Shown here: one piece after another, positions 835 to 7,139 of the stretch
Position numbering within the stretch: position 1 is the first letter of the stretch
Layout of the letters: each line of letters begins with the position of its first letter
Assembly (NCBI GenBank): GCA_003327435.1
Contig: QOQV01000017.1
Span: 1-51,222 of the forward strand
Direction: 5' to 3'
Origin: Ignavibacteriota bacterium
GTDB taxonomy: Bacteria; Bacteroidota; Ignavibacteria; UBA10030; BY39
Length of the DNA stretch: 51,222 bases
Program-made: the position numbers and the translations under genes
The notes under the pieces: generated by a model
Told to the model about the DNA's origin: nothing
Database searches by the model: none
What the model saw: the letters and a program-made list of their open reading frames with translations, nothing else

Positions 835-1308
835 ATGAAACTTCATATCTCAATATTTTTGGTTTTTCTTTTAATTGGTTGCAGTTCAAAGAAAGAGACA
901 ATCAAAGAAGAAGCCTCAATAACACAACAAACTGAACAACAAATTGAACCGCCGCAACCACCTAAAACTACAACCTATAAAGAGAACAGCACATTGGTAA
1001 GTTGTCTTGTAGATACTCTTGAGATTGTTGACGATTACAAATACAAAATTACGGTAAAAGTAATCACTGCGATACCAGACGATTGGAATGTTTCGATAAT
1101 TGAACCCGAGCAGATTATAACGGTTATTCCTGCATATTTATTAGATGAAAATCAAAATATTGACTTACAAAATCCAATTAATGCAAAGTTATATGAATTA
1201 AGGAATTTAAAGAAGAAGGGATTTTTTATCGGTAAGGTTACATTAGCAAGAGATAATAATTATTATATAACAAAAGTCGAGGCATGGCAAAATCCGCCAG
1301 AGGAGTAA
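835..1308 (+). CDS. Small putative lipoprotein, function unknown
   Basis: This is a 157-residue protein. Its N-terminus is a lipoprotein signal: a hydrophobic stretch ending in the lipobox LIGC, with the lipidated Cys at residue 16. A Lys/Glu/Gln/Pro-rich linker follows to about residue 48, and then a single compact domain of roughly 105 residues rich in beta-type segments. I do not recognise the domain. It ends 2 bp before the start of the large propeller/T9SS protein, and its last codons supply that gene's GAGGAG ribosome-binding site (about 1299-1304). The two are therefore almost certainly co-transcribed. The likely location is the periplasm or the outer membrane. A role in handling the secreted protein next door is inferred from position only. 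Confidence 0.7.
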   Translation: MKLHISIFLVFLLIGCSSKKETIKEEASITQQTEQQIEPPQPPKTTTYKENSTLVSCLVDTLEIVDDYKYKITVKVITAIPDDWNVSIIEPEQIITVIPAYLLDENQNIDLQNPINAKLYELRNLKKKGFFIGKVTLARDNNYYITKVEAWQNPPEE

Positions 1309-1310
1309 AG

Positions 1311-4300
1311 ATGAAACAAAGAAATTTTTTATTGATTATTTTATTAAGCGCTTTAAGCTTTACAATATTTTTTTTATTACAGGATACTGATTCAAGAAAA
1401 ATTCATTCAAGCGATCCAAAGATTGCACGAAAATATGAAAGGTTAAAAAAAGGTTTACCAAAGTCGGATAAACCAGGCGAAGCTGTAAAATGGTTTTTTG
1501 AGCAACGAGCATATCCAGCAGGAAGTATTCCAACCGACTGGCGGGAAAAAGCATTACAACATATTGAAAGAAAAAATCTTCAAAAAAACACAAAACCACT
1601 TTTGAGCTGGATAAGTGTTGGACCGCATAATATAGGTGGTCGTGTTAGAGCAATAGCAATATCTAACCAGAATCCAAATATTGTTTATGCAAGTTCTGTA
1701 AGTGGCGGGATTTTTAAATCTACAAATGCAGGTTCATCATGGATTCCGATTTCCGACTTTGCTGGAAATTTAGCTATATCATCTATCGTGTTAGATCCAA
1801 ACAATAATAACATTATTTATGCTGGAACTGGAGAAGGATTTTTTAACTACGATGCTGTAAGAGGCGAAGGTGTGCTTAAGTCCACTGACGGTGGCGTAAG
1901 CTGGACACTACTCAAAAATTTTAGCGGTCCTGCTGGTTTCCCATACTATATCAATGATCTTTACTTGCGTCCTGATAGTACAAATATTTTATACGCTGCT
2001 ACGAATACTGGACTTTTCAGAACAAACAATTCAGGAAATAACTGGAATTATATTCACAGTGGCAGCTCATATCGCGCCACTCAAATCGTTCCTCATCCAA
2101 CTGACCCAAGGACATTTTATGTATGTTATGGAAACTTTTCAACAGATGGAATTTATAGAACTACAAATGGAGGAACCTCATTCACCAAACTCACCGGTGG
2201 TTTTCCAACAAGCAATTTTAACAGAATTGCACTTTCTATCTCAAAAAGTAATCCGAATATACTTATTGCATCACTTGACTCAGTAACAACACATTATACA
2301 CACAGCATACAAAAATCCACAGATGGTGGAAGTAGCTGGTTTGCAGTTGGTAAACCCATCGACACCCAGCTTGGTGGCTCCCATTTAGGTGGACAGGGTT
2401 GGTACAACAATGTTATTGCAATTCATCCAACAAACCCAGACATCATCTTTGCAGCTGGTATAAATTTGTTTAAATCTACAAACGGTGGTGCAAGCTGGTC
2501 GATGATTGCATTCGGTTACCCTCCATCTCCTTACCCATATGTACATGTAGATCATCACGAAATTGAATTTCATCCAAGTGATCCATCAATAATATACTTT
2601 GGGACTGATGGTGGTGTTTTCAGAACAACAAATACTGGAACAACATTTACTGAGTTAAATAATGGTTTTGCAACGATCCAGTTCTATAGTGGAGCTGTTC
2701 ATCCCACATCAGAAATTTATTATGGTGGAACTCAGGACAACGGTACACTAAAGAGTGGTACGATACCAAATTGGAATGTTGTTTTTGGGGGCGATGGTGG
2801 CGCAACAGCTGTCGATTACAATAATCCCAATATTGTTTACACTGAATATGTAAATCTGAACATACAAAAATCCACCAATTCTGGTGCAAGCTGGTTTAAA
2901 GCGATGACAGGGATTCCAACTGGCTCCAATCAATACGATGGCACTACTGATCGTGTCTTGTTTATCGCACCATTCGTAATGGATCCAAATTCACCTACTA
3001 CTCTGGTTGCAGGTACTTACAAATTATATCGAACAACCACAGGAGCCGCATCCTGGACTGCAATAAGTGGAGATTTAACGGGTGATGGTACTGGTGACGC
3101 AGGTTCAAAAATTTCAGCTATCGCAATTGCAAAAAAATCCTCCGCTGTGATATATGCCGGTACAACGGGAAGTGGTACCTCCCAGTCAAGAGTTGTGGTA
3201 ACAACAAATACCGGCTCAAACTGGTCAACAATCAGTAAATCACCTCTTCCAAATAGATGGGTGACTTGCATCGCGATTGACACTTCAGATTATGAGAGAG
3301 TTTTAGTAACTTTTTCAGGATACAACACAAACACTCCATCAACACCAGGTCATGTATTCTTAACAACAGACCGAGGTACCAGCTGGAAAGATGTAAGTGG
3401 CGATTTACCAGATATACCAGTCAACTCAATAGTTATCAATCCAAACAATCAAAATCATTGGATTGCAGGTACAGATTTAGGAATCTTTGAAACTCAAAAT
3501 GGTGGAATAAACTGGGTACAACAAAATATTGGAATGGCTAATGTAGTTGTGGTAGATTTAGATTTGCGCAAAGATAATCATCTTTTTGCAGCAACACACG
3601 GTAGAGGAATGTTTAAATCGGCCGAACCTCTTGCTGTTTTGGTTCCAAGAGATACCATCTTCCCCGGTGATACCAACGCAGATTGGATTGTTGATGCACG
3701 GGATATTTTACCAATCGCTCGCTACTTAGGTCTAACTGGTTCCCCAAGAACAAATGCATCTCTAAACTGGATCGGACAAAATCTAAGTGGGCCTTTTGAT
3801 CCAATTGAAGCAGCATATGCAGATTGCGATGGCGACGGAAAAGTTGAAGCCGAAGATGTTTTAGGAATAGTTCAAAACTGGTATGCAACTCGCTCCCCAC
3901 TTTACAGACCTCAGGTTAATCAGGTCCTTGCCTGTGAGGAAATTTTACAAAATATAGATCCAAAATCAAATTCATCCGAAATCAAATCAATTAGAAATGT
4001 AATTATAAATTATCGATCCGAACTACTCGGAATACCGAACGAATTCATACTTGAACAAAATTATCCCAACCCATTTAATTCAAAAACAAAAATATCCTTT
4101 ACCAGCCCAATTGAAATTGAAAAACTATCGTTAAATATTTATGATTTAAGTGGACAACTAATAAGGGAACTTAACAAATACAATTTATTACCCGGTAAAA
4201 ATTATTTTGAATGGGATGGCACAAACCAGTCAGGTATTACGGTGTCAAGTGGTGTTTATATATACACCATAACATATGAAAACAAAAATATTTCAAGAAA

Positions 4301-4319
4301 AATGGTATTAATTAAATGA
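1311..4319 (+). CDS. Secreted BNR/sortilin-type propeller protein with dockerin domain and T9SS sorting domain
   Basis: Translation from the ATG at 1311 gives 1002 residues. I chose this start because GAGGAG lies just upstream and the signal peptide (MKQRNFLLIILLSALSF) begins here. A longer frame from 1284 would overlap the previous gene. Residues about 95-775 contain many Asp-box/BNR-like repeats (STNAGSSW, STDGGVSW, TTNGGTSF and similar) as in Vps10/sortilin-type propellers. Residues about 786-865 look like a type I dockerin. Loop one has D787, N789, D791, D795 and D798. Loop two has D838, D840, D842, E846 and D849. The last ~85 residues match the type A T9SS sorting domain (YPNPFN at its start, SGVYIY near the end, final KMVLIK). 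The expected location is the cell surface or medium. The ligand is unknown. Its stop overlaps the start of the cohesin-like gene (ATGA). Confidence 0.88.
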   Translation: MKQRNFLLIILLSALSFTIFFLLQDTDSRKIHSSDPKIARKYERLKKGLPKSDKPGEAVKWFFEQRAYPAGSIPTDWREKALQHIERKNLQKNTKPLLSWISVGPHNIGGRVRAIAISNQNPNIVYASSVSGGIFKSTNAGSSWIPISDFAGNLAISSIVLDPNNNNIIYAGTGEGFFNYDAVRGEGVLKSTDGGVSWTLLKNFSGPAGFPYYINDLYLRPDSTNILYAATNTGLFRTNNSGNNWNYIHSGSSYRATQIVPHPTDPRTFYVCYGNFSTDGIYRTTNGGTSFTKLTGGFPTSNFNRIALSISKSNPNILIASLDSVTTHYTHSIQKSTDGGSSWFAVGKPIDTQLGGSHLGGQGWYNNVIAIHPTNPDIIFAAGINLFKSTNGGASWSMIAFGYPPSPYPYVHVDHHEIEFHPSDPSIIYFGTDGGVFRTTNTGTTFTELNNGFATIQFYSGAVHPTSEIYYGGTQDNGTLKSGTIPNWNVVFGGDGGATAVDYNNPNIVYTEYVNLNIQKSTNSGASWFKAMTGIPTGSNQYDGTTDRVLFIAPFVMDPNSPTTLVAGTYKLYRTTTGAASWTAISGDLTGDGTGDAGSKISAIAIAKKSSAVIYAGTTGSGTSQSRVVVTTNTGSNWSTISKSPLPNRWVTCIAIDTSDYERVLVTFSGYNTNTPSTPGHVFLTTDRGTSWKDVSGDLPDIPVNSIVINPNNQNHWIAGTDLGIFETQNGGINWVQQNIGMANVVVVDLDLRKDNHLFAATHGRGMFKSAEPLAVLVPRDTIFPGDTNADWIVDARDILPIARYLGLTGSPRTNASLNWIGQNLSGPFDPIEAAYADCDGDGKVEAEDVLGIVQNWYATRSPLYRPQVNQVLACEEILQNIDPKSNSSEIKSIRNVIINYRSELLGIPNEFILEQNYPNPFNSKTKISFTSPIEIEKLSLNIYDLSGQLIRELNKYNLLPGKNYFEWDGTNQSGITVSSGVYIYTITYENKNISRKMVLIK

Positions 4320-4873
4320 AAAAATTCCTCGCTATTATAATAATATTCGTATTAGTGGCATCCTGTAAAAAGGAAACAACTACACAACCTCCCGTTGTTA
4401 AACCGGAAGATTTTTCATTTCCTCCATCTTCACGGTTTGCAATCAGTTTAATTACAAATTCTACAAATGTAAATTTAGGAAGCGAATTTGATACAAAAAT
4501 CGTCTTTTACAATGTTCAGGAAGTTTTCGGTAGCGCAATCGAAATCGTATATGATAATAATCTACTTTCCATTCCAAATCAAAGCAAGTTACTGATAGGA
4601 CCATTTTTTAATATTGAAGACACATCCAAAATTTTAATACTAAAAAAGGTAGAAAATCTTTTTGGCAGAGCAAGCCTGGGGATTTCATATGTTAGAAATA
4701 GCGGACTGGTATCGAATGGAAGTGGAGTTGTTTTCAAAATCAAATTTACACCAATCGCTCGTGGAGATACCTGGATAAAAATTAGCAAATGCGAAATCAG
4801 AAAAAGTGACGGTAATTTTATTAATAACTTTTCTAACATCCAGATAGATAGCTTGCAGATTTCAATTAAATAA
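4316..4873 (+). CDS. Lipoprotein with cohesin-like domain
   Basis: This is a 185-residue protein with a lipobox (LVASC, Cys17), a short Thr/Pro-rich linker, and one domain from about residue 40 to the end. The domain has the pattern of a cohesin/CBM-like beta-sandwich. An early strand follows VNLGSEFDTKIVFYNVQ. Next come FGSAIEIVYDNNLLSI, a mid-domain GPFF segment, and SGVVFKIKFTPIARGDTWI near the end. Cohesins are the docking partners of dockerins, and the preceding gene encodes a dockerin. The start codon overlaps that gene's stop by 4 bp, so the two are probably translationally coupled. The simplest reading is an outer-membrane receptor for the secreted propeller protein, but that is inference. 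Remote homologues of this fold also occur without dockerin partners. Confidence 0.72.
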   Translation: MKKFLAIIIIFVLVASCKKETTTQPPVVKPEDFSFPPSSRFAISLITNSTNVNLGSEFDTKIVFYNVQEVFGSAIEIVYDNNLLSIPNQSKLLIGPFFNIEDTSKILILKKVENLFGRASLGISYVRNSGLVSNGSGVVFKIKFTPIARGDTWIKISKCEIRKSDGNFINNFSNIQIDSLQISIK

Positions 4874-4883
4874 ATTGAAACTG

Positions 4884-7139
4884 ATGAGATATAAGCTAAC
4901 ATATATATTAATCTGCATTATTTATATCATTGCACAACCTGCATTGGGTCACAACAAGATTGATAAATCAAAAATTTACAACCTGAAAAACAAAAAACCA
5001 GCTATAGATACAAGTACTTATTTTGATGCCAACAACATTAAAATGGGGATGCGAAATACAGGCCAGTTGATTGATCCTTTTTTGCAATTTGAGTGGCCTA
5101 AAAACTCCGGCTTATATACAATTTTCACAGGTGGACTATGGGTGGCTGGAAAAATAAACAATGAAACACGCATTGCAGCAGTTTTATACGATACTTCAGC
5201 ATATTTACCAGGTACGATAATCAATGGTGTTCCTCAATCACCAAACAATCCAAGATTCAAATTTTACAAAATATTTAAAACTGATTCCACTGGAACAAAT
5301 TCTGATTATGATAACTGGCCAGTGGAAGATGGTGCACCAATTTTACCTGATAGCTCACCAATAAGAAAAAGTTTTCAGAATATTTGGTGTGTATATAACG
5401 ACTCAAGAAATCAATCAAGGGAATTCTCTACACTACCTTTGTCTGTTGAAGTACAACAATATGTTTATGGCGATTCTATTCCTGGTCAGTTAGAAAACAC
5501 AGTATTTGCTGAATTCAAAATTATCAACAAAGGTTCTTCAGTAATTAACGATGCTTACATCGGAATATGGCTGGATTGTGACATTGGTTTCTTCGCTGAT
5601 GATCTTGTTGGAATAGATACATCGCTAAAATTAGCGTACTCATTTAACTATAATGACGAAGATTTATATTATGGCGATGCCCCACCCGCGCTCGGTCTTG
5701 TTATACTAAAGATGCCTGTAGAGAATGAAAATTCTTATTCCTTTATTGGTTTCAAATATCTTGATTCACTCTGGGATGATCCCATCAACGCAAATGAAGC
5801 TTACAATTTTATGAAAGGATTAAAAAGAGATGGGTCTTCAATTATAGATCCCAATACAAATGAAATCACACGCATTATGTATTCTGGGGATCCCATAACA
5901 CAAACCGGCTGGATAGATACATCATCAAATGATAAAAAAATGTTACTTTCTTTTGGACCGATTAATATGCAACCGTATGAATCGCGAAATCTTCACTTTG
6001 TTCTAACCGTCGGCTCAGGAAACGATCGACTAAGCAGCTTATCAAATCTAAAAGAAAATATTCAACAAATTAAAGATTATTATAACGAAAAGCTGATTCG
6101 AACTCTTTTATTCTCTACCTACAATATAAATTTCGACACGCTTGCTGTTGGATTAGAAAGATCCTATGATTTAATCATCAAAAACACAGGCGAAGCAAAC
6201 GTAGAAATTGATAGCATAACTTGTGATAATGACAACTTTACTGTTAATCATTTCAGTTTTTCACTCAACTCAGGTGATTCATCTATAATAAATATAAAAT
6301 TTTTACCACAAATCGCCGAACAACATAATGGCAAAATTATTTTTTATCACAACGCTTTTAAAAATCAGGATACGATTATAGTTCAAGGTAGAGGTATAAT
6401 CTACCAACCATTATGTTACATACCAACGCCAGCAATTGATTTTGATACAGTCTTTGTTGACTCATTCAAAGTTAAAGATTTGAGGATTCATAATTCTGGT
6501 AATGCAGTATTAAAAATCGACTCAATAATTTCGACCAATCCCGATTTTTCTATAATTACAAGAAGTTTAGATGTGGCTCCTTTTGATTCAGCAAATATTT
6601 CTGTTAAGTACTCTCCATCAATAAAAAATTCTGAAATCGGTTTTGCAATAATTTATCACAATGCTCAACCAAACATTGATAGTGTTATACTTTCAGGTAA
6701 AAAATTTATTTCAAAATCCCTTCCATTATTAAATGGTTGGAACTTATTATCACTACCGATCAAATCTTCTAAATCCTATGTGTATAATCTATATCCATCT
6801 GCCTTATCAAAAGCGTATAACTATGATAATGGTTATGTAGCAAATGATTCAGTTATAAGTGGTATCGGTTTCTGGTTAAAATTTCCTAATGCAACTGTCG
6901 TTGAGTATATAGGAAAACCAATCTCTGTAGAAACTCTTTATGTAGAAGCAGGATGGAATCTTATTGGTGCTCCTTCATATAATATAGAGACTGCAAAAAT
7001 CATACAAATACCTGACAATATAATAATCTCGGATTTCTATAAATTCATAGATTCCTATATCAAGAGCTATGTATTAGAACCCGGTTACGGCTACTGGGTA
7101 AAAATAAAGAATCCTGGAACATTAATTTTTAATCCATAA
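4884..7139 (+). CDS. Secreted protein with Hydin-like Ig repeats and a conserved C-terminal module
   Basis: The product is 751 residues from the ATG at 4884. A TTG at 4875 would add three residues. Residues 1-22 form a signal peptide. Residues about 30-400 make a large domain (with FTGGLWVAGKINNETRIAA) of a type I associate with secreted proteins of Ignavibacteria, function unknown. Two ASPM/SPD-2/Hydin-type Ig repeats follow at about 410-500 and 515-605. The N-terminal part of each reads like NINFDTLAVG...LIIKNTGEANVEIDS. The last ~140 residues are an internally duplicated module, GWNLLSLP...GFWLKFP then GWNLIGAP...GYGYWVKIKNPG. The protein at 37546-38961 ends with the same module. It follows the cohesin-like gene by 10 bp and completes the secreted-protein run. 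Confidence 0.78.
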   Translation: MRYKLTYILICIIYIIAQPALGHNKIDKSKIYNLKNKKPAIDTSTYFDANNIKMGMRNTGQLIDPFLQFEWPKNSGLYTIFTGGLWVAGKINNETRIAAVLYDTSAYLPGTIINGVPQSPNNPRFKFYKIFKTDSTGTNSDYDNWPVEDGAPILPDSSPIRKSFQNIWCVYNDSRNQSREFSTLPLSVEVQQYVYGDSIPGQLENTVFAEFKIINKGSSVINDAYIGIWLDCDIGFFADDLVGIDTSLKLAYSFNYNDEDLYYGDAPPALGLVILKMPVENENSYSFIGFKYLDSLWDDPINANEAYNFMKGLKRDGSSIIDPNTNEITRIMYSGDPITQTGWIDTSSNDKKMLLSFGPINMQPYESRNLHFVLTVGSGNDRLSSLSNLKENIQQIKDYYNEKLIRTLLFSTYNINFDTLAVGLERSYDLIIKNTGEANVEIDSITCDNDNFTVNHFSFSLNSGDSSIINIKFLPQIAEQHNGKIIFYHNAFKNQDTIIVQGRGIIYQPLCYIPTPAIDFDTVFVDSFKVKDLRIHNSGNAVLKIDSIISTNPDFSIITRSLDVAPFDSANISVKYSPSIKNSEIGFAIIYHNAQPNIDSVILSGKKFISKSLPLLNGWNLLSLPIKSSKSYVYNLYPSALSKAYNYDNGYVANDSVISGIGFWLKFPNATVVEYIGKPISVETLYVEAGWNLIGAPSYNIETAKIIQIPDNIIISDFYKFIDSYIKSYVLEPGYGYWVKIKNPGTLIFNP

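Follow-up and report, generated by a model that had tools for sequence, protein, structure and literature searches.

In the window, by which we mean the whole analysed stretch of 51,222 nucleotides from an Ignavibacteriota bacterium, two overlapping genes encode a large cargo protein of the type IX secretion system (T9SS) and a small lipoprotein. The lipoprotein is probably a dedicated, one-to-one receptor of cohesin type, anchored by its lipid, whose ligand would be the dockerin on the product of the upstream gene; we infer calcium-dependent binding, at the cell surface, to a cargo cleaved at its sorting domain. The two genes have been kept together in several distantly related genomes, and the lipoprotein therefore probably serves as a dedicated hook for this cargo.

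The gene pair and its secreted cargo

The first operon of the window consists of a gene for a small lipoprotein (835-1308), a gene for a 1002-residue protein (1311-4319), and a gene for a 185-residue lipoprotein (4316-4873). Its features are as follows:

835..1308, + strand: small lipoprotein gene upstream of the cargo (open reading frame, family conservation; membership of the unit uncertain)
1311..4319, + strand: T9SS cargo, 1002 aa (open reading frame, Pfam, NCBIfam, residue check)
3663..3863, + strand: Dockerin_1 domain, residues 785-851, with two F-hand-type calcium loops (Pfam)
3669..3704, + strand: calcium loop 1, D787-D798 (residue check)
3822..3857, + strand: calcium loop 2, D838-D849 (residue check)
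3864..4034, + strand: conserved segment from dockerin to sorting domain, two helices predicted with low confidence
4062..4307, + strand: T9SS type A C-terminal sorting domain, residues 918-999 (TIGR04183, Por_Secre_tail)
4316..4319, + strand: ATGA overlap of four bases between cargo stop and lipoprotein start (sequence)
4316..4873, + strand: lipoprotein assigned to the cohesins, 185 aa (open reading frame, homologues, profile comparison)

The cargo gene starts at the ATG at 1311, which has AGGAG just 5′ of it; the mechanical open reading frame runs from 1284. The initial annotation had placed the gene pair correctly and had noticed that the second gene overlaps the first; the overlap is four bases (ATGA). 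It had also read a T9SS C-terminal domain at the end of the cargo, and this assignment stands, as both TIGR04183 (34.9 bits, cut-off 23) and Por_Secre_tail (34.7 bits, cut-off 27) match residues 918-999 above their cut-offs.

The small lipoprotein gene at 835-1308 ends 2 bases ahead of the cargo gene, and its product has 49-69% identity among members of the family. Small lipoproteins occupy the same position before the cargo in G014 and G026 (G numbers denote genomes of the class), with no detectable sequence similarity to the 835-1308 product, and for this reason we did not count this gene in the pair. On the 3′ side lies a gene for an ASH/choice-of-anchor D protein (4875-7139). It is present in G001, but G003 and G004 have nothing of it between the pair and the peptidase gene, and it is therefore not part of the unit. 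Upstream of the operon, intergenic stretches that recur at positions 120-480 follow the pattern 'gaacgagtccgtc..gaagaatctgactga..gtcagat' and resemble a dispersed repeat.

The cargo protein is built of an N-terminal hydrophobic signal, propeller repeats of the Sortilin/Vps10 type (98.6 bits for the Sortilin-Vps10 match), a long dockerin, the helical segment, and the type A sorting domain. A GH74 xyloglucanase was considered and rejected as the identity of this protein. The similarity of its propeller to the GH74 type is only partial and weak, and therefore no enzymatic role is claimed for the cargo.

The dockerin, proposed at first from its calcium loops, scores 29.7 bits against Pfam Dockerin_1, above the cut-off of 22.9, over residues 785-851. 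A residue-by-residue check found all ten calcium ligands as the initial annotation had listed them (D787, N789, D791, D795 and D798 in the first loop; D838, D840, D842, E846 and D849 in the second). Both loops carry D, N or E at positions 1, 3, 5, 9 and 12, and the loop motif occurs at just these two sites in the entire cargo protein. The wide spacing of the loops was also noticed rightly: it is 51 residues, versus about 34 (34-35) in dockerins of related genomes, so that the cargo dockerin departs from the compact type I layout, a repeat pair of about 60 residues with loops about 34 apart. What had been described as a divergent type is a dockerin with a long insert that is common across the class. 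Our class-wide search found long-insert dockerins in 75 of 391 genomes; as a rule, a cohesin-like domain accompanies them, either within the chain or as the product of the following gene. One residue of the first loop deserves mention. Position 6 is Trp792 (3684-3686), in contrast to Gly in most relatives, including the close relative G001; this residue may weaken the calcium site of loop 1, or it may be a sequence error.

The lipoprotein and its place in the host genome

Is the product of the second gene a cohesin? It comprises a signal peptide with a lipobox (Cys17), a Pro-rich linker, and the putative divergent cohesin domain. The lipobox was recognized by inspection (...VLVASC17KKET), and relatives have it likewise. 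Searched alone, the window lipoprotein had no match in Pfam or among PDB sequences, no NCBIfam match over the cut-off, and nothing usable from PADLOC; the cohesin model PF00963 was among those that gave no match. The initial annotation had called the protein cohesin-like, with the lack of a significant cohesin profile match as its first refuting condition. No cohesin model recognized the protein on its own, which by this condition would seem to tell against a cohesin, but the resemblance was recovered as homology through its relatives.

The homologue of the lipoprotein in G054 (E 3e-15) is itself a Pfam cohesin, with 40.4 bits for PF00963 at a cut-off of 24.1, and two further homologues match this model weakly. 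In profile-profile comparison, a profile of eight homologues reached 94.2% (E 1.2e-7) against a profile of local PF00963 cohesins. Five rows, only those without a Pfam match, gave 90.6% (E 1.3e-6). The four rows closest to the window lipoprotein, taken alone, gave 7.6% (E 0.005), so the cohesin signal depends on the diversity of the family. The decoys were the reversed cohesin profile, 30 column-shuffled versions of it, and three unrelated local profiles; they scored 10.8-16.3, with a probability near zero, and the real profile comparisons scored 41.7-48.5. A profile search of PDB with the lipoprotein family had the cohesin 5g5d as its top match, at a non-significant E of 0.15, and we gave this match no weight. 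Cohesins fold as a nine-stranded beta-sandwich; the AlphaFold model of the lipoprotein, with a pLDDT of 31, has no usable fold, and the single-chain models of both proteins are of low confidence, each having been computed from the window protein and one close relative only. The sequence comparisons, taken together, indicate that the lipoprotein is almost certainly homologous to cohesins, and we classify it on this basis as a divergent cohesin.

The host genome encodes SprA (1114 bits), PorU (964 bits), and about 96 T9SS sorting domains over the cut-off. It has one dockerin only. The PF00963 search of this genome gave no match, and the family of the cohesin lipoprotein has one member in it even at E 10. 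Should the dockerin have such a partner in the cell, the lipoprotein is the only candidate from the PF00963 and family-profile searches, although more distant cohesins may lie beyond their reach. A single dockerin and a single cohesin in this genome would make the pairing unambiguous, and tests of binding and by knock-out unusually clean. A cellulosome was rejected for this genome: a multi-cohesin scaffoldin and several dockerin enzymes were not found in it, only the one dockerin and one lipoprotein cohesin, with no PF00963 match.

The pair suggests the following route. The cargo would cross the inner membrane by means of its N-terminal signal. Its C-terminal domain would direct it through the T9SS (SprA) across the outer membrane, and PorU would then probably cut off this sorting domain, so that the dockerin and the helical segment come to lie close to the new C-terminus. 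The lipoprotein would go to the outer membrane, where its cohesin, if exposed at the surface, would bind the calcium-loaded dockerin and so hold the propeller protein at the cell surface.

The two proteins may also bind each other as parts of a wider surface assembly, in which the cargo is anchored covalently by the usual route of PorU and A-LPS, and the cohesin lipoprotein, rather than being its chief anchor, joins it to other surface parts. The sorting domain is indeed of type A, the class that is attached covalently to A-LPS (PMC9143113); PorU is present, and about 95 other cargos do without a dockerin. However, the genome has a single dockerin and a single cohesin of this kind, from which no multi-part scaffold can be built, and we consider such an assembly rather unlikely.

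Another arrangement places the cohesin of the lipoprotein in the periplasm, as a chaperone or a stop for the cargo dockerin before export by the T9SS. The tight operon would suit this role equally. The mature N-terminus of the window lipoprotein, CKKET, carries no clean signal for surface export behind the lipid-bearing Cys, nor do most members of the family, which agrees with a periplasmic role; the homologue of G026, however, begins with CKKDD, close to the known surface-export motif. Cohesins of known role act outside the cell, and in relatives one exported chain often contains both cohesin and dockerin. We regard a periplasmic role as improbable.

Distribution of the pair across the class

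The survey covered 391 genomes of the class, and lipoprotein matches over 180 bits were taken as strong. Strong matches occur in eight genomes, and these same eight are the ones in which the long dockerin of the family lies directly upstream. The lipoprotein gene is always directly 3′ of an open reading frame that ends with the long dockerin, the conserved and probably helical segment, and the T9SS domain. The eight pairs span five gene neighbourhoods, with different flanking genes outside the window's own family. Related sequences are not independent, and we therefore argue from how many distinct contexts there are instead of from a p-value.

It is instructive to follow the pair and its components along the different lineages. 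For example, the N-termini of the cargos have been exchanged: most are propellers, while G014 has an M30 peptidase and G063 has ASH-type domains. The pair is patchy even inside genera: G026 has it, while G013 and G018 of the same genus lack it. G002, although its assembly is fragmented, shows no lipoprotein, and of the cargo only broken pieces (residues 628-962) are left between the same flanking genes. A single fused chain in G391 combines a C10 peptidase with the long dockerin, a cohesin (27 bits), and the sorting domain, and the gene after that of a long-dockerin cargo in G132 encodes a protein whose cohesin is clear (42.5 bits). Scans for further loci gave none in viral contigs and one in genome contigs.

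At the level of presence and absence, 54 of 100 relatives have both dockerin and cohesin, 32 have neither, and 14 are discordant. Most of the listed cohesins (57 of 88) lie within 6 kb of a dockerin. In a mirror-tree comparison, the distances of lipoprotein and dockerin correlate no better than those of lipoprotein and sorting domain, so there is no specific co-evolution signal beyond shared ancestry. That the two domains are mere common building blocks of co-transcribed genes, with no mutual binding, would fit this background-level signal, the wide spread of both domains in the order, and the cohesins that have no dockerin nearby, but it is very improbable in view of the exact co-occurrence in 8 of 391 genomes and five neighbourhoods, the joint loss in G002, and the fused forms.

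A dedicated receptor may be part of something that travels. The long dockerin and the helical segment before the sorting domain, together with the matching lipid-anchored cohesin of the next gene, could form a general, portable module for surface retention of T9SS type A cargo, which would pass between genomes as one piece and be joined to various secreted proteins. We see the case for and against such a module as evenly balanced. If it is true, type A cargo gains the cargo-specific anchoring that is known only for type B.

Other arrangements of these domains occur in the class. Widespread proteins of 450-520 residues, usually one per genome (L128, L130-L140, L157-L159), have an N-terminal domain that is cohesin-like by profile comparison (93.7%) and then a long dockerin in one chain. 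The split form in the window, in which a lipoprotein bears the cohesin, looks like a specialised version of this older same-chain combination. A recurrent gene pair was found at L162 9998-17275 (G005), and also in G004:C126, G024:C9, G040:C39 and G012:C9. Its first gene codes for about 1,750-1,900 residues with dockerin, cohesin and sorting domain, and its second for about 670-860 residues with two or three cohesins; this looks like a larger conserved cohesin-dockerin assembly of the T9SS. A second kind of cohesin protein, of about 280 residues with a C-terminal cohesin (L103, L105, L106, L107, L108), includes a Y_Y_Y domain in some cases and a lipobox-like start in several. The one at L108 overlaps the stop of a T9SS cargo of 1561 residues, in which half a dockerin is weakly recognizable.

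Comparison with known systems

Cohesins and dockerins are reportedly known outside cellulosomes as well. The pair in the window would extend their biology well away from cellulose degradation, and the class of long-insert dockerins may supply orthogonal binding pairs for protein engineering. A lipid-anchored cohesin reserved for just one of roughly a hundred cargos points to a second way of placing secreted proteins, which would be non-covalent and selective.

The cellulosomal type I pair of Clostridium and Ruminococcus is alike in having a two-loop calcium dockerin on the cargo and a cohesin on a separate cell-attached protein. In contrast, a single cohesin and a single dockerin here take the place of the multi-cohesin scaffoldin; the loops are spaced by 51 residues, there are the T9SS and a lipid anchor, and no cellulase is shown. 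Proteins with a single cohesin in scaffoldin surveys are likewise attached to the membrane (PMC11557425), but they have C-terminal membrane helices, many possible dockerin partners, and no T9SS (PMC11557425).

A cellulosome-like complex has been inferred in Ca. Stygibacter (Cloacimonadota), with the T9SS proposed to work together with cohesins and dockerins (PMC8542988). There, as here, dockerin proteins, in that case enzymes, are combined with a C-terminal domain of T9SS type (PMC8542988). The difference lies in the distribution of parts: in Ca. Stygibacter the C-terminal domain and tandem cohesins are on a scaffoldin of 3,755 aa (PMC8542988), whereas in the window the C-terminal domain is on the dockerin cargo and the cohesin is a single domain on a lipoprotein. 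The open-access papers searched, with most subscription papers outside this scope, describe no pairing of a cohesin lipoprotein with a T9SS cargo that bears a dockerin.

Within the T9SS itself, type A cargo shares the common shuttle PorV and is, as a rule, attached covalently to A-LPS, while type B cargo has cognate PorP/SprF-like partners that are often adjacent (PMC9143113, PMC12618676). The present pair would resemble type B cargo, whose PorP/SprF-like shuttle is a surface partner specific to that cargo and in many cases the product of a neighbouring gene (PMC9143113, PMC12618676). However, the partner of type B is a 14-stranded outer-membrane barrel that binds the type B C-terminal domain (PMC9143113, PMC12618676), and here the C-terminal domain is of type A and the partner would be a cohesin lipoprotein. 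With type A cargo, a cargo-specific partner would be something new. Pairs of cohesin and dockerin have been proposed before both outside cellulosomes and together with the T9SS; the new part is a putative receptor that is a lipoprotein and whose gene stays paired with that of the cargo.
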